A stretch of DNA of 64,000 bases, from the NCBI RefSeq assembly GCF_026151205.1, contig NC_087072.1:503501-567500 (forward strand). The letters run 5' to 3'. Source of the stretch: Bolinopsis microptera. Lineage: Eukaryota > Ctenophora > Tentaculata > Lobata > Bolinopsidae. Under the pieces are notes generated by a model, which saw nothing but the letters and a program-made list of their open reading frames with translations, was not told where the DNA came from and made no database searches. Shown here in pieces: positions 12,907 through 30,300 of this stretch (position 1 is the first letter of the stretch; each line of letters begins with the position of its first letter). The position numbers and the translations under genes were made by a program.

Positions 12907-13080
12907 TTTTACTGAATAAACCTCCAGGGTTTGTGGATCCTATAATTAAACGGTAGGTAACGGTAGTTACTGGTTACTAGGTTACTGGTTACTAGGTTAC
13001 TGGTTACTAGGTTACTGGTTACTAGGTTACTGGTTTTACTGAATAAACCTCCAGGGTTTGTGGATCCTATAAATAAACGG
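12907..13080. repeat. 46-bp flanks duplicated around a GGTTACTGGTTACTA array
   Basis: A 46-bp block containing CTGAATAAACCTCCAGGG and TTTGTGGATCCTATAA is present at 12907-12952 and 13034-13079 with one difference. The interval is filled by GGTTACTGGTTACTA units. It follows the same plan as the other flank-motif-flank loci, with a longer flank and an expanded core. Confidence 0.9.
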
Positions 13081-15072: not shown

Positions 15073-15156
15073 TTAGCGAACGTAGTGGTTACTAGGTTAC
15101 TAACTGGTTACTAGTGGTTACTAGGTGGTTACTATGGTTATTAGCGAAGGTAGTGG
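15073..15156. repeat. flank-motif-flank duplication (16-bp flanks)
   Basis: TTAGCGAACGTAGTGG at 15073-15088 is repeated with one change at 15141-15156. The interval is GGTTACTAGGTTACTAACTG-like sequence. Confidence 0.8.
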
Positions 15157-17202: not shown

Positions 17203-20200
17203 ATGGCAGATAAAACCCTCTCCAGTGACATCCGCTTCTTTATGAGCGTCGTGATGTTCCTGATGGCTACCATGGCAACGCTCGGTAACTTTATTATCGT
17301 CTTCCTCTACTGGTCGAAGCCTGCCCTCAAGAAGAACGCTAACCTCCTGATAGCCAACATTGCTGTTGCAGGTCAGTTACTAGGTTACTGGTTACTAGGT
17401 TACTGGTTACTAGGTTACTGGTTACTGGTTACTAGGTTACTGGTTACTAGGTTACTGGTTACTGGGTTACTGGTTACTAGGTTACTGGTTACTAGGTTAC
17501 CTCCTGATAGCCAACATTGCTGTTGCAGGTCAGTTACTACGTTACTGGTTACTAGGTTACTGGTTACTAGGTTACTGGTTACTGGTTACTAGGTTACTGG
17601 TTACTAGGTTACTGGTTACTGGTTACTAGGTTACTAGGTTACTAGGTTACTAGGTTACTAGGTTACTGGTTACTAGGTTACTGGTTACTTGGTTAATGGT
17701 TACTGGGTTACTGGTTACTAGGTTACTAGTTACTACTACTACGTTGTTGCATGTATTTGTATCTTCTTATCTTACCCTCGATATGTGTGCTAAGTTTTGT
17801 ACAAAACTTAGCACACACAACCAAATTGTCATACGTTTTTACATAAAAATAACTCCATTACTGATGTGGAGTGATAATAACTCCATTACTGATGTGGTGT
17901 GATAATAACTCCATTACTGATGTGGTGTGATAATAACTCCATTACTGATGTGGTGTGATAATAACTCCATTACTGATGTGGTGTGATAATAACTCCATTA
18001 CTGATGTGGTGTGATAATAACTCCATTACTGATGTGGTGTGATAATAACTCCATTACTGATGTGGTGTGATAATAACTCCATTACTGATGTGGTGTGATA
18101 ATAACTCCATTACTGATGTGGTGTGATAATAACTCCATTACTGATGTGGTGTGATAATAACTCCATTACTGATGTGGTGTGATAATAACTCCATTACTGA
18201 TGTGGCGTGATAATAACTCCATTACTGATGTGGTGTGATAATAACTCCATTACTGATGTGGTGTGATAATAACTCCATTACTGATGTGATAATAACTCCA
18301 CTATTACAGATATGCTGGTTGGTTTCCTGAGTATGACCGCAGTGGGAGTGTCGATGAGTTTTAACGACTGGGTGTTCGGGAGATCACTGTGCACATTGTC
18401 AGCCTTCCTAGACAACGTCATGTTAGTTACCAGCATGTACCTCATCATGATGATCAGCATAGAGAGGTGGGTACACTTGTTTTGCTAAGTTACTGGTTGC
18501 TAGGTTACTGGTTACTAGGTTACAGGTTACTAGGTTACAAGCTGGTTACTAGGTTACAAGCTGGTTACTAGGTTAATGGTTACTAGGTTACAAGCTGGTT
18601 ACTAGGTCAAGTCAAAAACTGACATAAAGATACATGATATATATTCTATAATGTGCGAGTGTTGCTAGGGAATCAGCTGTGGTTGATATGGAGATACTAG
18701 TAACCTAGTAACCAGTAACCTAGCAACACATTACAAAGCTTTAAAGTACCCTTTTACTGAGATGACGTTATGACACAATATCATGCATAGCATGACCACT
18801 CAGATAATTAAAAACATTGTTATAAGAATATAAGAATAATATTGCAGTACCGTTGTAAAACGTGGTCAGGAAGGCGACTTTTATAATTACTCTAGTAGCA
18901 ATACTTTTATGATGCTCCTTTATAATGCCCTTTTATTAATCTCGCCTAAAAGTTTGCTCACCAATGTCTGAATAAGCATGGTTCTTACGACAAAACTCGA
19001 AACTTTAAAGCTATGTAATGTGTTGCTAGGTTACTGGTTACTAGGTTACTAGTTAAAGCTGTGTAATGTGTTGCTAGGTTACTGGTTACTAGGTTACTAG
19101 TTAAAGCTATGTAATGTGTTGCTAGGTTACTGGTTACTAAGTTACTAGTTAAAGCTGGGTAATGTGGGGAGGGGTGGGCACAGTGGGCAATCTAATAGGG
19201 CATTATGCGGGGGGGGGGGGGTACACTACACTTTGTAGCCAATATTAATTAGTCCACAAATAACATCATGTGCTATCTACTGGTGATCTGAGTGAAGTAC
19301 GAGGGGGGGGGGGGTCGACCCCACTCTCTGCAACCTTATTTCAAAATAAACTTATTCCGACAGGTTGATAAGAATAACAAGGCCTAACGAGTACAGGAAG
19401 AGAGTAACACAGACCGTTACCAAGGTGATGGTTGGGATAGCCTGGGCTGTCAGTGTGGCCCTTTCCAGTCCCCCCGTCTTCGGAGTAGCTACTTACAAGT
19501 AAATTGTTTCCAAATGATCATCAGCTGTCCAACACATTTGCTGCACGAGTGTTACAGATCACTCCATTGATTATTAACGTCTCAACCTCACAACCTCACA
19601 ACCTCACGACCTCACAACCTCACGACCTCACGACCTTACAACCTCACGACCTAACAACCTCCCTACCTCACAACCTCACAACCTCACAACCTCACGACCT
19701 AACAACCTCCGGACCTCCCAACCTCACGACCTCACGACCTCACAACCTCACAACCTCACAACATCAAAACCTCCCAACCTCACGACCTCACAACCTCACA
19801 ACCTCACAACCTCACAACCTCACAACATCAAAACCTCCCAACCTCACAACCTCACAACCTCACGACCTCACAACATCAAAACCTCATAACCTCACAACAT
19901 CAAAACCTCATAACCTCACGACCTCACTCTCAGGTACAGTCCGGCCACGTTCTCCTGCGGTCTGAAGATAGAGGGCTACTTCGCCCCACAATGGTTCCTC
20001 ATCTTCTCCTTGGTCGCTTTCTTCCCTCCTATCATTTGCACCTTCTACTGTTACGGGAACATATTCTACGTGGGGTGGCAGGTGGTGAACAGCAGCCGGT
20101 TCAAACCCGCCAATGTCACTAGTGAGTATTTAACTGTTTTCAGGTAGTGACCCGCCAATGTCACTAGTGAGTATTAAACTGTTTTCAGGTAGTTTCTCTT

Positions 20201-21204
20201 TTAAACTTTACGAATGAACGTTCTTTTCGAATATTATCAAGAATCTTATTGCTCAAATATCGCAGTAATACATAGCAACAAGTAACTATAAAAAGTACTA
20301 AGTATTCTGTAGTACTCGAAGTTGTTGAGCCGTAAGCAATGCCCCAGCAGAAGTGATAGTGACCTCAGTTGACCAGAGGACCACGACAGTACAAGTTAAT
20401 AAGAGGAAGAAGAACATGCCGAAGGGGATGAAGCTCTCCATGTCCATATTTGGGATTGTAGCGCTGGTTCTAGTCTTCAACTTCCCAGTGGTCTGCCTTG
20501 GGCTGCTCATGTATGCTGGTAAGGAAACTTATACTACCTTATATGGGCATCACGTGACACGTTTTACAACACTTGTTGTATATTACATGTCTTATACTAT
20601 GTACAGAAATTCAATTAAATGGCTATTAGCCGGCTGTTTAAGGGCTGTTAGGTATTAGTGCCCCCAAAATGGCTGTTAAGTGTTAGAGGGCTGTTACCGT
20701 AACAACCAGCTAATAATAGCAGGTCGGCATTGCACCTATTTGCCGAGAACTCTGAGTACAGTTTAACCGCTAAATGTTCAGCAACTAACTTGTCCCCTCC
20801 TCAGAAGTAATAACGACCATCCCATTCGAGTTGGGGATGACATTCCACGTGCTGTGGTACGTGCACTCCGCCCTCAACCCACTCATCTTCCTGCTGACAG
20901 TGCCCGACTTCCACCACCACCTCACTCTCCTCCGCAGGTTACACTACTAGTTACCATAGTTACACTACTAGTTACCATAGTTACACTACTAGTTACCATA
21001 GTTACACTACTAGTTACCATAGTTACACTACTAGTTACCATAGTTACACTTCTAGTTACCATAGTTACACTACTAGTTACTGCTGACAGTGCCCGACACC
21101 ACCACCTCACTCTCCTCCGCAGGAACAGCTTCAGACCTAAAGCACAGCCTCGGAACATTGTCATCAGGGACAACCACAGCGACACCTCCGGACGGTGGAA
21201 CTGA
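17203..21204 (+). CDS. rhodopsin-like (class A) G protein-coupled receptor, seven exons
   Basis: Predicted plasma-membrane receptor of about 343 residues; the ligand is unknown. Exons: 17203-17371, 18310-18466, 19364-19498, 19934-20121, 20351-20518, 20805-20937, 21123-21204. All junctions are GT-AG and the phases agree. TM1 has LGNFIIVFLYW, and TM2 (NIAVADMLVGF) is split by intron 1. TM3 begins after the disulphide Cys in RSLCTLSAF and ends in SIERLIRI, so ERL replaces DRY. TM4 has GIAWAVSVALSSPP. TM5 has FFPPIICTFYCYG. TM6 has LVFNFPVVC without the usual CWxP Trp. TM7 has HSALNPLIF (NPxxF). The ATG at 17203 opens the frame just before TM1; an upstream TTG in frame is not needed. Intron 6 and parts of introns 1 and 4 show duplicated exon-intron junctions. 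The last exon is the first unit of a 63-bp array. Amine or peptide receptor subfamily cannot be decided. Confidence 0.85.
17372..17740. repeat. intron 1 minisatellite of GGTTACTGGTTACTA units with an embedded exon-end copy
   Basis: Units of 15 bp fill the 5' half of intron 1. At 17499-17528 the array contains a second copy of the exon 1 end (CTCCTGATAGCCAACATTGC...) with its donor GTCAGTTACTA. Confidence 0.9.
17855..18300. repeat. 28-bp minisatellite at the 3' end of intron 1
   Basis: About 15 units of ATAACTCCATTACTGATG plus TGGTGTGATA occur. The last, truncated unit runs into the acceptor CTATTACAG at 18301-18309, so the array abuts the splice site. Confidence 0.95.
18480..18606. repeat. 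intron 2 GGTTACTGGTTACTA-type array
   Basis: Degenerate GTTACTAGGTTAC and GCTGGTTACTAGGTTACAA units lie just downstream of the exon 2 donor. Reverse-orientation units (TAGTAACCTAGTAACC) occur near 18696-18724. Confidence 0.8.
19010..19165. repeat. intron 2 tandem repeat of about 60 bp, three copies
   Basis: Each unit combines TAAAGCT(A/G)TGTAATGTGTTGC with TAGGTTACTGGTTACTA. G homopolymers follow at about 19208-19221 and 19302-19314. Confidence 0.8.
19575..19932. repeat. 9-bp ACCTCACAA minisatellite ending at the exon 4 acceptor
   Basis: Around 40 units of ACCTCACAA or ACCTCACGA occupy most of intron 3 and run directly into CACTCTCAG, the acceptor at 19933. The pyrimidine-rich strand therefore serves as the polypyrimidine region. 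Confidence 0.9.
20110..20196. repeat. tandem duplication of the exon 4 / intron 4 junction
   Basis: CCGCCAATGTCACTAGTGAG and the following intron bases through TTTTCAGGTAGT appear at 20108-20150 and again at 20152-20194. This gives two potential donor sites (20122 and about 20166). The first keeps the receptor frame with exon 5. Confidence 0.85.
20892..21122. repeat. exon-end duplication around a GTTACCATAGTTAC array (intron 6)
   Basis: The 46-bp exon 6 end at 20892-20937 is repeated at 21081-21122 with a 4-base deletion. The interval 20938-21080 consists of about seven units of GTTACCATAGTTACACTAC plus TA. The upstream copy provides the donor and the downstream copy the acceptor. Confidence 0.9.
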
Positions 21205-24200
21205 TAGGACCTTATTAACATTGTCATCAGGGACAACCACAGCGACACCTCCGGACGGTGGAACTGATAGGACCTTATTAACATTGTCATCAGGGACAAC
21301 CACAGCGACACCTCCGGACGGCGGAACTGATAGGACCTTATTAACATTGTCATCAGGGACAACCACAGCGACACCTCCGGACGGTGGAACTGATAGGAAC
21401 TTATTAACATTGTCATCAGGGACAACCACAGCGACACCTCCGGACGGTGGAACTGGTAGGACCTTATTAACATTGTCATCAGGGACAACCACAGCGACAC
21501 CTCCGGACGGTGGAACTGATAGGACCTTATTAACATTGTCATCAGGGACAACCACAGCGACACCTCCGGCCGATGGAACTGATAGGACCTTATTAACATT
21601 GTCATCATGGACAACCACAGCGACACCTCCGGACGGTGGAACTGATAGGACCTTATTAACATTGTCATCAGGGACAACCACAGCGACACCTCCGGACGGT
21701 GGAACTGATAGGACCTTATTAACATTGTCATCAGGGACAACCACAGCGACACCTCCGGACGGCGGAACTGATAGGACCTTATTAACATTGTCATCAGGGA
21801 CAACCACAGCGACACCTCCGGCCGATCGAACTGATAGGACCTTATTAACATTGTCATCAGGGACAACCACAGCGACACCTCCGGACGGTGGAACTGATAG
21901 GACCTTATTAACATTGTCATCAGGGACAACCACAGCGACACCTCCAGACGGTGGAACTGATAGGACCTTATTAACATTGTCATCAGGGACAACCACAGCG
22001 ACACCTCCGGCCGATGGAACTGATAGGACCTTATTAACATTGTCATCAGGGACAACCACAGCGACACCTCCGGACGATGGAACTGATAGGATCTTATTAA
22101 CATTGTCATCAGGGACAACCACAGCGACACCTCCGGACGGTGGAACTGATAGGACCTTATTAACATTGTCATCAGGGACAACCACAGCGACACCTCCGGA
22201 CGGTGGAACTGATAGGACCTTATTAACATTGTCATCAGGGACAACCACAGCGACACCTCCGGACGATGGAACTGATAGGACCTTATTAACATTGTCATCA
22301 GGGACAACCACAGCGACACCTCCGGCCGATGGAACTGATAGGACCTTATTAACATTGTCATCAGGGACAACCACAGCGACACCTCCGGACGATGGAACTG
22401 ATAGGATCTTATTAACATTGTCATCAGGGACAACCACAGCGACACCTCCGGACGGTGGAACTGATAGGACCTTATTAACATTGTCATCAGGGACAACCAC
22501 AGCGACACCTCCGGACGATGGAACTGATAGGACCTTATTAACATTGTCATCAGGGACAACCACAGCGACACCTCCGGACGATGGAACTGATAGGACCTTA
22601 TTAACATTGTAATCAGGGACAACCACAGCGACACCTCCGGACGGTGGAACTGATAGGACCTTATTAACATTGTCATCAGGGACAACCACAGCGACACCTC
22701 CGGACGGTGGAACTGATAGGACCTTATTAACATTGTCATCAGGGACAACCACAGCGACACCTCCGGACGGTGGAACTGATAGGACCTTATTAACATTGTC
22801 ATCAGGGACAACCACAGCGACACCTCCGGACGATGGAACCGATAGGACCTTATTAACATTGTCATCAGGGACAACCACAACGACACCTCCGGATGGTGGA
22901 ACTGATAGGACCTTATTAACATTGTCATCAGGGACAACCACAGCGACACCTCCGGACGGTGGAACTGATAGGACCTTATTAACATTGTCATCAGGGACAA
23001 CCACAGCGACACCTCCGGACGGTGGAACTGATAGGACCTTATTAACATTGTCATCAGGGACAACCACAACGACACCTCCGGATGGTGGAACTGATAGGAC
23101 CTTATTAACATTGTCATCAGGGACAACCACAGCGACACCTCCGGACGGTGGAACTGATAGGACCTTATTAACATTGTCATCAGGGACAACCACAGCGACA
23201 CCTCCGGACGGTGGAACTGATAGGACCTTATTAACATTGTCATCAGGGACAACCACAGCGACACCTCCGGACGGTGGAACTGATAGGACCTTATTAACAT
23301 TGTCATCAGGGACAACCACAGCGACACCTCCGGACGATGGAACTGATAGGACCTTATTAACATTGTCATCAGGGACAACTACAGCGACACATCCGGATGG
23401 TGGAACTGATAGGACCTTATTAACATTGTCATCAGGGACAACCACAGCGACACCTCCGGACGGTGGAACTGATAGGACCTTATTAACATTGTCATCAGGG
23501 ACAACCACAACGACACCTCCGGACGATGGAACTGATAGGACCTTATTAACATTGTCATCAGGGACAACCACAGCGACACCTCCGGACGGCGGAACTGATA
23601 GGACCTTATTAACATTGTCATCAGGGACAACCACAGCGACACCTCCGGACGGTGGAACTGATAGGACCTTATTAACATTGTCATCAGGGACAACCACAGC
23701 GACACCTCCGGACGATGGAACTGATAGGACCTTATTAACATTGTCATCAGGGACAACCACAGCGACACCTCCGGACGGTGGAACTGATAGGACCTTATTA
23801 ACATTGTCATTAGGGACAACCACAGCGACACCTCCGGACGGTGGAACTGATAGGACCTTATTAACATTGTCATCAGGGACAACCACAGCGACACCTCCGA
23901 ACGATGGAATTGATAGGACCTTATTAACATTGTCATCAGGGACAACCTAAGCGACACCTCCGGACGGTGGAACTGATAGGACCTTATTAACATTGTCATC
24001 AGGGACAACCACAGCGACACCTCCGGACGGTGGAACTGATAGGACCTTATTAACATTGTCATCAGGGACAACCACAGCGACACCTCCGGACGATGGAACT
24101 GATAGGACCTTATTAACATTGTCATCAGGGACAACCACAGCGACACCTCCGGACGGTGGAACTGATAGGACCTTATTAACATTGTCATTAGGGACAACCA

Positions 24201-24974
24201 CAGCGACACCTCCGGACGGTGGAACTGATAGGACCTTATTAACATTGTCATCAGGGACAACCACAGCGACACCTCCGAACGATGGAATTGATAGGACCTT
24301 ATTAACATTGTCATCAGGGACAACCTAAGCGACACCTCCGGACGGTGGAACTGATAGGACCTTATTAACATTGTCATCAGGGACAACCACAGCGACACCT
24401 CCGGACGGTGGAACTGATAGGACCTTATTAACATTGTCATCAGGGACAACCTAAGCGACACCTCCGGACGGTGGAACTGATAGGACCTTATTAACATTGT
24501 CATCAGGGACAACCACAGCGACACCTCCGGACGGTGGAACTGATAGGACCTTATTAACATTGTCATCAGGGACAACCACAGCGACACCTCCGGACGGTGG
24601 AACTGATAGGACCTTGTTAACATTGTCATCAGGGACAACCACAGCGACACCTCCGGACGATGGAACTGATAGGACCTTATTAACATTGTCATCAGGGACA
24701 ACCACAGCGACACCTCCGGACGGTGGAACTGATAGGACCTTATTAACATTGTCATCAGGGACAACCACAGCGACACCTCCGGACGATGGAACTGATAGGA
24801 CCTTATTAACATTGTCATCAGGGACAACCACAGCGACACCTCCGGACGATGGAACTGATAGGACCTTATTAACATTGTCATCAGGGACAACCACAGCGAC
24901 ACCTCCGGACGATGGAACTGATAGGACCTTATTAACATTGTCATCAGGGACAACCACAGCGACACCTCCGGACG
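21154..24974. repeat. 63-bp minisatellite, about 60 copies, derived from the receptor C-terminal codons and stop
   Basis: The first unit starts inside the last coding exon (21154) and includes the codons for INVIRDNHSDTSGRWN-like residues and the TGA at 21202-21204. Every following unit repeats that piece with an added TAGGACCTTATT segment. Core: CCACAGCGACACCTCCGG. As 63 is divisible by three, the frames not used by the receptor stay open on both strands for up to 937 codons; these are artefacts. Variant positions show a six-unit (378-bp) duplication: CCTAAGCGAC at 23946 and 24324, GAACGATGGAATTG at 23898 and 24276. Confidence 0.95.
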
Positions 24975-27315: not shown

Positions 27316-30300
27316 ATGGCCCCCAAAGATAACGAGTACAGTAACAGAACTATTTACGGAGTTGAAAATGCTGCTCTTCGATATACCTGGGCAGGATTTC
27401 TCTTCTTCATCTTCGTCTCGTCTTTCATAGGAGACACAATCATCCTACTAGCCTCCATAAAATACAGAGCCATCAAACTTCATAAAATCATCATCGTCAT
27501 CATCCAGCACATAGCAGTATGTGATCTGATGGTTTCTGTTGCGGACGTTCTCCCGAACTTGGCCTCCCTGCTAGCTAACAAGCAAGTGTTTGGAGACTTC
27601 CTCTGCTCCATCTCACCTTACCCGCGGTTCTACTTAACCGTAGCTAGCGTGCTCCTCATCTGCACCATGACAACCAGTAAACTCTTCACCTTGCGGCACC
27701 CCATCAGATCTAGAGTTATCTCTCTTAAACAAGTACACCTGCTCTGCCTGGTGTGCTGGGTAGTCTCCTTCATTGTACCCGTCATCTTCATCTGTATAGA
27801 CTGGCACGATGTGTACTTCTCATTCCGTATCTACCAGTGTAGCTATGGTTACTCAGCGGACATCTACCGCAAACTGAAACCTATCCTGGTAGCCTTGTTC
27901 ATATTCCTTCCTACTTGTGTGGTAGTAACTGCAACCGTTCTAGTGCTGATCATAGCTAAACGAGTGGCTAGTCGTAACCGAGGCAGTCTGAAATGGCAGG
28001 GGATCACTACAACAGTACTCACCGCCACTATCTACTGTGTCTCTGTGCTCCCTGTGTTCCTCTACGCTGCTGGAGAGGGTAAAGTGGGAGGTGATAAGAG
28101 CACTAGTTTCTTCCACACCTACTTCTACAGGTTACCATAGTTACATTACTAGTTACCCTAGTTACACTACTAGTTACCATAGTTACACTACTAGTTACCA
28201 TATACATAGTTACACTACTAGTTACCATAGTTACACTACTAGTTACCATAGTTACACTACTAGTTACCATAGTTACACTACTAGTTACCATAGTTACACT
28301 ACTAGTTACCATAGTTACACTACTACACAGTGTGCCCAGAGGCTGCAAAAAGTATTTAGGGTGATATTTGCTTTCCAGATAAGTTTAGCCTGATCTGATC
28401 AGAAATAATCTGAATTTTCTAACAAAAAAAGAATTAAGGGGCTATCATTTTTGGTTCTTGAGATATCTTGAATCATATACACCAAATTGGTATGAAATTT
28501 ATGAATAAAATTCAATAGGATAAGAATTAATGGATGAATTGGTCGCATATAAACTAGAATAATAATCTCTAAACATGTCTAAAACCATAAACATTGTTTT
28601 TCATCATTATTATATGGAGTTAGGGGCCAGATCCAATAAAAATTGGGTTAAAAATACGAAATTTCGATTTTTGCAGGCAAAATTCGATGTTTTCATCATT
28701 TTTGAAGGACAAAATTTCGTTCCCATGGTACCAAAGTGCAGAATCAACTTCCAGATCCCAGTTTTGGGAACTATTAACTAAGTTATTTGTTATGCCTGAT
28801 ACCTTACATTGACAGAAAAAACATAATGGGGAACCCGAATTTGTCATCTGACACCTTCCCATGGCCATAAGTACCCCCAGCCTCCCTCAAAAAATTTGAC
28901 TGCCAAAATATGGGGATATCACTATTTTACCCTTAACTAATCATGGGGGCAGTTTAAGAGTCTCCACATGTTTTTTAAAGTAACCTTTAGGTATGGTTAT
29001 GCCTAAGAATGACTATTTGGGAACTATTTTCAGCTACTGCCCTAAAATTTTGGTAATTTTATTGAAATTAGGGTCCTTTAAAGTTAAAAAAGGGCTAAAT
29101 CTACCATTTTTAGACCTTAAATTGCAAAAATAATGATTTCTGAACTGTTTGAGAGAATAAAGATTGCTTTTTAAGTGTTTTTGGTCATTGTAAGGTCCGG
29201 AAACACTTGTTGAGGTGATTTAAAGGCTTTAAAAAAGAAAATATCAGCAATTTGGGGCTAAATTACCTTATTTTGTAAGCGCGTAACTCAATTTAGCTCA
29301 AAATAACATTGTTTTTGTCCACGAAAATTCGAATTTTGATTAAAAGCCATGTATGGAGGTATCAAATGAAAGCTCTTGATAACCTCTTTCCATTTAAAAC
29401 ACAAAGAAGTAGTTTATAATTGATATAAGTGATAAAATGGTCTAAAAATGGAATCAAAAAGTCCTAAAATTCACAAAATTTCTGTCTAATCTTAAACCTT
29501 TGATGGCCCATAAAAAAATCATGCCACAATATCACACTGTAAATTTTTCTGGGATTACTCTAAATGTCCTATACTTACAGATAGCGTAAATTATGGATGC
29601 TCATCAAAGTGAATTTGTCACTTATTTTTGTAATTTGTTCAAAAATATGGCAAAAAACGGCAAAAAAATGTAATTTTACACCAAAAATCAGGTTAAATCA
29701 ATATATGAGGTCAAAAATCCTTCTAATCATCTTGAAAACCCCTTTAAACGATTTCTCATGCAATTTTAGGTTGGATAGGGTAGTTTTAAATTGAAAATAA
29801 GCTGGTTGAAGAAAAATACTGACTTTTTGCAGAAAATCGGGCTCGCGGGCACACTGTGTACTAGTTACCATAGTTACACTACTAGTTACCAAAGTTACAC
29901 TACTAGTTACCATAGTTACACTACTAGTTACCATAGTTACACTACTAGTTACCATAGTTACACTACTAGTTACCATAGTTACACTACTAGTTACCATAGT
30001 TACACTACTAGTTACCATAGTTACACTACTAGTTACCATAGTTACACTACTAGTTACCATAGTTACACTACTAGTTACCATAGTTACACTACTAGTTACC
30101 ATAGTTACACTACTATTTTCTTCCACACCTACTTCTACAGGATAGCTAACCTCTTCCTCTCCCTCAACACGATCAGCAACTTCTACATTTACAGTCTCAC
30201 GGTGGAGAGCTTCAGACGGTTTGTGCGCTCACCCAGTCATTACAAACACTCTGTAAACTCTGCTGATATTATCAGACATGGTGAGACGTTAGGTTAATTT

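Follow-up and report, generated by a model that had tools for sequence, protein, structure and literature searches.

How new spliceosomal introns originate is a long-standing question, and recent cases that can still be read are few. Several described systems come close to the locus analysed here. In the Introner survey, TSDs of 3–9 bp are given for earlier families and TIRs for 72 of 177 families, a share of the families is reported to lack TSDs or TIRs, and low-complexity families were removed from the pipeline by manual inspection (Gozashti et al., 2022; PMC9860276). The main text of that survey contains neither "ctenophor-" nor Bolinopsis nor Mnemiopsis. In Daphnia, neointrons are described with exon-end repeats of 4–12 bp, interpreted as the result of staggered breaks (PMC4202315). 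In amphioxus, minisatellite-like duplications of exon-intron boundaries, termed mirages, were put forward as an origin of new introns (PMC3087553), and in human segmental duplications novel introns can form from variable tandem repeats that lie at such boundaries (PMC2812944). In the open-licence literature, to which our search was restricted, no report was found in which satellite arrays, inserted with long target duplications, repeatedly give rise to introns.

An inferred new intron in receptor A

The window (the whole stretch of DNA analysed, 64,000 nucleotides from Bolinopsis microptera) contains a gene, receptor A, in which an array of GTTAC-containing repeats lies between two copies of an exon end. 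Its features are as follows.

27316–28130, plus strand: receptor A exon 1, from the ATG to CTACAG (ORF and spliced translation)
28102–28130, plus strand: coding (upstream) copy of the target duplication, ACTAGTTTCTTCCACACCTACTTCTACAG
28131–30140, plus strand: inferred new intron of 2,010 bp, ACAG/GTTACC ... CTACAG/GATAGC
28131–28325, plus strand: left part of the array (21-bp GTTAC unit), 9.0 copies
28326–29858, no strand assigned: TIR element of 1,533 bp within the array, with the target duplication TACTA at 28321–28325 and 29859–29863
29859–30115, plus strand: right part of the array (21-bp GTTAC unit), 12.2 copies
30112–30140, plus strand: intronic (downstream) copy of the target duplication, ACTATTTTCTTCCACACCTACTTCTACAG, providing a pyrimidine-rich stretch and the predicted AG acceptor
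30141–30297, plus strand: receptor A exon 2, through the stop (spliced translation)

The two copies (28102–28130 and 30112–30140) match at 28 of 29 bases and are identical over the last 24. Because the first four bases (ACTA) also belong to the array unit, the length of the duplication is best given as 24–29 nt. When the flanks of the receptor A array were compared with each other the score was 27, and mismatched flank pairs from the window had a 99th percentile of 11 and a maximum of 83, the latter being due, we take it, to neighbouring arrays that share overlapping flanks. The array unit is the 21-bp GTTACCATAGTTACACTACTA; an earlier note on this DNA had correctly described the intron body as a repeat array, but the 14-bp motif that it gave is only part of this unit.

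Removal of 28131–30140 in silico restored FYR/IAN within a 323-aa ORF that encodes a rhodopsin-type receptor, and the spliced protein matched the Pfam domain 7tm_1 with an E value of 5.8e-16. If left unspliced, receptor A would meet an in-frame stop within a few codons. The exonic CAG joined to the array GTTACC would provide the donor, and the duplicated exon end would provide the acceptor. In our reading the donor GTTACC is weak apart from its exonic CAG, and splicing itself is inferred from the DNA sequence, with no transcript data. The earlier note had placed the intron within FYR/IAN, where paralogues B, C and D read through, had described its end as a 28-of-29 duplicate of the exon end, had assigned donor and acceptor as above, and had stated that splicing removes exactly one copy and restores the ancestral reading. 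The analysis bears out the interruption, the duplication and the exact restoration of the frame, and the assigned donor and acceptor agree with the sequence, splicing itself being unproven.

Paralogues B, C and D are uninterrupted at the position of the receptor A intron. A genome search with the spliced receptor A gave 701 candidates, of which 124, including receptor A itself, were scored, and the family may be larger. Among the 123 other scored matches, 122 read in a single frame through residue 272, where the intron lies in receptor A (11 of them with an in-frame stop somewhere), and the remaining one stops short at residue 266. The 24 other loci cut out by this search were all aligned, and the site is uninterrupted in each of them (24/24). 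On this comparison the intron was most likely gained in receptor A, and the recent gain put forward by the earlier note is well supported.

The TIR element has the termini CACAGTGTGCCC ... GGGCACACTGTG. It splits the array and carries its own TACTA duplication, and the order read earlier, with the array first and the element after it, holds on the sequence. The first 271 bases of the element have 13 matches in the genome, that of the window included: ten are full-length (97–100% identity), two are near full length (90%) and one covers 45 bases. Target duplications of 5 bp were found in the three copies examined (TACTA in the window, GAGCG and CTGCA). The family of this 1,533-bp element is young.

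Recurrence of GTTAC arrays between target copies

Further arrays of the window lie between flank copies, one of them in a second receptor gene, receptor E.

20891–20937, plus strand: end of a receptor E exon in TM7/helix 8, duplicated over 47 nt, this being the upstream copy (flank comparison)
20938–21122, plus strand: receptor E inferred new intron of 185 bp, CGCAG/GTTACA ... CGCAG/GAACAG, with a 21-bp GTTAC array
12957–13035, plus strand: GTTAC array between 48-bp flank copies (flank scoring)
15084–15140, plus strand: GTTAC array between short flank copies of 18–19 bp (flank scoring)

Receptor E is of rhodopsin type. Its exons, from about 17204 to 21204, were joined by eye, and the hand-joined protein matched 7tm_1 with an E value of 2.8e-38. 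The downstream exon-end copy measures 43 nt (21080–21122) and the upstream copy 47 nt, a length difference of 4 nt. Absence of the intron from relatives, taken as a criterion of break repair, is satisfied for receptor A; for receptor E it rests on one distant homologue that crosses the site in one frame (contig C9, 17023199–17023531; 30% identity, query 226–343).

Other repeats were seen in and beside receptor E. In its intron 1 a direct duplication of 157 bp (17342–17658), which takes in the exon end, the donor and the array, resembles the mirages of amphioxus, and positions 20105–20193 hold a 45-bp tandem duplication (exon end, donor and TTTTCAG) without an array. At 21154–24974 a 63-bp unit is repeated about 61 times, and the first unit contains the C-terminal coding end and the stop of receptor E.

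The genome searched comprises 264.65 Mb in 232 contigs, and stretches were taken from 13 contigs of 15–26 Mb. Among proteins of solved structure, an ionotropic glutamate receptor encoded in it matches best the iGluR entries ML032222a of Mnemiopsis leidyi (241 bits) and next a kainate-like protein (4zdm, 192 bits), and the others of the 60 matches listed reach at most 163 bits. GTTAC arrays were sampled by patterns, not by a whole-genome scan: (i) a 35-nt internal pattern, with the first 100 of 838 matches listed, the listed arrays outside the window being L001–L014; (ii) a left-edge pattern in which the base before GTTAC is not A, with 100 of 161 matches listed and 58 loci fetched; (iii) a CAG/GTTAC edge with 26 matches, two in the window and 24 in 21 fetched loci; and (iv) four loci hand-picked from the edge pattern CAGGTTAC with free spacing. 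With 2,651 matches, this last pattern proved too general for use in its own right. The reversed control of the 35-nt pattern gave no match, against 838 for the pattern itself. Among the matches listed for it, those on contig C1 (26.2 Mb) lie within 2.4 Mb of one end, with one exception at 17.7 Mb, which suggests regional clustering.

A flank-against-flank score of at least 14 was obtained for 49 of the 118 GTTAC clusters with adequate flanks (73 loci, the window counting as one), and these 49 lie in 32 loci. In the null set of 5,827 mismatched pairs the 99.5th percentile was 13 and the maximum 46. Seven of the 49 sit in loci judged to be of low complexity or of another period. The 69 clusters that score below 14 could be ancient or decayed arrays, or arrays that expanded at their present site.

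Copies abutting the array were found at 15 of 48 scorable loci chosen blind to the copies: 7 of 14 from the internal pattern and 8 of 34 from the left edge, the latter without the low-complexity L054 and with L092 and L093 counted as one event. The CAG-edge loci gave 6 of 20 scorable (L027 and L028 being one event) and the hand-picked loci 3 of 4. When arrays were defined by TRF, abutting copies were present at 23 of 97 GTTAC arrays and at none of 81 non-GTTAC arrays (Fisher, 3e-7). The 97 include the CAG-edge and hand-picked loci, some of the control loci overlap the window, the TRF rows are not fully independent, and arrays with one or two GTTAC or with low density are omitted. "Abutting" was defined slightly more widely in the per-locus counts than in the TRF comparison, and both cut-offs were set after first looks. 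Five of the 81 controls score at least 14 and none of them has abutting copies; three of the five are one place counted three times, and the other two align GTTAC-array letters. If the window is taken by itself, abutting copies flank 5 of its 13 GTTAC arrays and none of its 22 others, two GTAAC-containing arrays being placed in neither group; for one of the five (60659) the result hinges on where the array edges are set.

In four loci (L002, L011, L015 and L025) the target copy together with the array is itself repeated several times, as expected of unequal exchange between flank copies.

Two broader claims of the earlier note have to be revised in the light of these loci. It had called receptor A a rare case, and the same footprint recurs in receptor E and at many of the loci sampled elsewhere in the genome. 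It had also described the gain as an exon-end duplication around the motif array; the duplication is best understood as the footprint that an inserted satellite array left at its target site, and not as an exon duplication that gained an array afterwards.

Outside the window, sampled arrays lie in two recognisable genes. At L004, a trypsin-like gene, the joined empty site is spanned by one ORF with a trypsin domain (E = 3.3e-39), and the exon end CTCTCAG is followed by a GTACTAGTTACC array and then by a decayed copy of the exon end. This intronic copy differs at 3 of 28 positions, all to T, which enriches the pyrimidine stretch before the putative acceptor. L092 and L093 are two copies of an SMC-hinge gene on contig C9 (112520–113750 and 282350–283570) with the same array intron; we assume that the gene is SMC2-like. 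One ORF crosses the joined empty site of L093 and matches the Pfam domain SMC_hinge (E = 3.4e-25). Here the duplicated AGGTACGTCATGATA yields a predicted donor, AAG/GTACGT, upstream and a predicted acceptor, CGCAG/GTACGT, downstream. The array is antisense, and the insertions of L092 and L093 differ, at 113 and 206 nt start to start. The pair could be a true gene duplicate or an uncollapsed haplotype.

An architecture like that of receptors A and E (CAG/GTTAC or CAG/GTAAC ... CAG) was also found at L025, L029, L030 and L038, which were selected by that edge and whose coding status was not established. At L005, L001 and perhaps L017 it is a putative acceptor that is duplicated, and arrays of this type could have been absorbed into a pre-existing intron. 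Pfam gave no match for the empty-site ORFs of L027, L038, L005 and L070. Because these other ORFs lack a Pfam match, the loci claimed as genes are limited to receptors A and E, the trypsin-like gene and the SMC-hinge gene. The ORF of L070 looks to us like that of a reverse transcriptase or retroelement, although this is an assumption on our part; with an array inside such an ORF, GTTAC-array insertion seems not to be targeted to genes.

Footprint, proposed mechanism and alternatives

The footprint was measured on 32 rows scoring at least 15 (15–78 bp), reduced to one row per event to give 22 curated events; L016, L031, L037, L054 and L094 were dropped (low complexity or other period), and 10 cases without a clear period were set aside. 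The target duplications of the curated events are 15–69 bp long (median 39), and the arrays have seven unit periods (8–21 bp), the 21-mer being present in 12 of the 22. At the right junction, array and target share at least one base in 12 of 22 events, or in 12 of the 16 whose junction is clean. Against an assumed 0.28, P is 0.008 for the 22 events and 1e-4 for the 16 clean junctions; the excess over all 22 is modest. The remaining right junctions carry filler, which exceeds two bases in six of the 22. The phase of the array at its junctions differs between loci, the insert shows no fixed ends, and no constant terminal sequence was noticed in the flanks looked at, which were not surveyed systematically.

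We compared these features with what defines the known systems. The Introner criterion that shared sequence reach near both splice boundaries is satisfied in receptors A and E, the trypsin-like gene and the SMC-hinge gene, where the 21-bp array fills the inferred introns up to the target copy, with some filler and, in receptor A, apart from the TIR element. The further Introner criterion, a transposable element with defined ends or a short fixed TSD, is not satisfied (15–69 bp, variable phase and unit). Direct repeats of the exon end at opposite ends of the intron, a criterion of break repair, are present in receptors A and E and in L004. An intron made solely of a duplicated boundary, as the tandem-duplication and mirage models require, was not found, and a foreign array lies between the copies in receptors A and E.

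We consider it likely that GTTAC minisatellite arrays were inserted at staggered breaks and that the target duplication made the insertions in exons removable as introns. This reading builds on the observed structure, on the exact restoration of the coding, on the absence of the intron from the paralogues of receptor A, on recurrence and on the association with GTTAC. Arrays of this type would have entered staggered DNA breaks at many genome sites, the most likely route being microhomology-assisted break repair that captured or copied satellite DNA, and fill-in of the overhangs would have left the target duplication (15–69 bp in the curated events) at both sides. Splice sites could then arise in two ways. 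In the first, exonic CAG together with array GTTAC (or GTAC) would serve as donor, with the repeated exon end as acceptor, as predicted for receptor A, receptor E and the trypsin-like gene; in the second, the duplicated target itself holds AG/GT and would give both sites, as in the SMC-hinge gene. The insertion would persist as a spliceosomal intron with the coding meaning unchanged. The splicing, the repair route and the source of the array copies are all inferred. No empty allele, from an individual or a sister species, is among the evidence, and insertion is deduced by comparing sequences.

Duplications of varying length, junctions of varying phase, and brief microhomology or filler are easier to reconcile with break repair, or with template switching at staggered breaks, than with a transposase. 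What the break-repair model does not explain is the link to GTTAC arrays, and this leaves room for a dedicated mechanism. GTTAC arrays might be a mobile class of their own, "satellite introners", seeded across the genome by a specialised activity that recognises GTTAC repeats or writes them, such as a reverse transcriptase of the telomerase or Penelope type that primes repeat synthesis at staggered nicks; introns would then keep arising from them. We give this a low probability; if true, it would explain why the GTTAC core and the footprint go together across seven unit lengths and not with the other minisatellites tested. Telomere motifs were counted in 700–1000 bases at six contig starts (C1–C6) and two contig ends, where TTAGGG occurred 0 times and CCCTAA once. 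The start of contig C2 has 7 GTTAC and 5 GTAAC scattered over 700 bases, and the other ends tested have 0–2 of each. These counts bear on a possible telomeric origin of the arrays; the contig ends tested probably do not represent genuine telomeres.

It is unlikely that a transposon carried the arrays, in effect an Introner loaded with satellite DNA and equipped with a transposase or retro-machinery of its own. In its favour are the target duplications found at unrelated loci, their association with GTTAC arrays, and the use of target duplications as splice sites by Introners (PMC9860276). Against it, the duplication length is not fixed and ranges from 15 to 69 bp over the 22 curated events, the phase at the junctions varies, seven unit periods occur, and the flanks looked at, non-systematically, lacked a constant terminal sequence.

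It is also unlikely that the insert is unspliced and receptor A (and E) broken, or that the assembly is in error, although RNA data are lacking and the donors are weak. The copies in the trypsin-like gene have diverged (3 in 28) while the ORF across the join is intact, as for an older, tolerated intron. The two SMC-hinge loci share the insertion at different lengths (113 and 206 nt), and the splice-compatible architecture recurs among unrelated genes.

We disfavour, as improbable, a plain tandem duplication of an exon piece, as in the AG/GT model or the amphioxus mirages, between the copies of which an array grew later. One 35-nt array sequence occurs 838 times in the genome, against 0 for its reversed control, and an independent origin of the array at each site is therefore unlikely; furthermore, none of the 81 non-GTTAC arrays has abutting flank copies. 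Boundary duplications that lack or span an array do exist in receptor E (20105–20193 and 17342–17658), and the mirages are close precedents (PMC3087553). An old origin of the receptor A intron, with loss from the paralogues, has nothing in its favour in this analysis and was rejected with hardly any doubt: of the 123 other family matches scored, 122 read across the position in one frame and one stops before it, 24 of 24 aligned relatives have no interruption, and the 24-nt core of the two receptor A copies is identical.

Comparison with known systems

Insertion of GTTAC arrays at staggered breaks may be regarded as a satellite-borne variant of Introner or insertion/break-repair intron gain, with splicing not demonstrated and the enzymatic route inferred. 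One genome displays several stages, from identical to decayed flank copies, of an apparently single process, and two distinct ways for a target duplication to yield splice sites. The intron prediction is directly testable by RNA-seq and with sister ctenophore genomes. Introns made from satellites may be under-counted elsewhere because the large survey removed repetitive families by design (PMC9860276).

As with Introners (PMC9860276), repetitive DNA enters exons, the target duplication can give splice sites and the coding is mostly unchanged. In contrast to Introners, the GTTAC duplications vary in length (15–69 bp), and what is inserted is a tandem satellite in which no fixed ends were seen. 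In Daphnia, too, break-repair gain leaves the exon end directly repeated on the opposite side of the new intron (PMC4202315); the repeats are longer here (15–69), and the filler is one recurrent satellite class. Two mirage-like duplications lie within receptor E (17342–17658 and 20105–20193), but in a mirage the repeated unit is the boundary itself (PMC3087553), whereas here a foreign array common to unlinked loci lies between the boundary copies. The human segmental duplications also show that minisatellite repeats at exon-intron boundaries can yield novel introns, although these are local repeats expanding in paralogues (PMC2812944), and here the array is common to unrelated genes and lies between target copies. 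Finally, in the tandem genomic duplication (AGGT) model (PMC3443670), a duplicated AG/GT gives both splice sites, as is predicted for the SMC-hinge gene; unlike the SMC-hinge case, that model places no inserted array between the copies.
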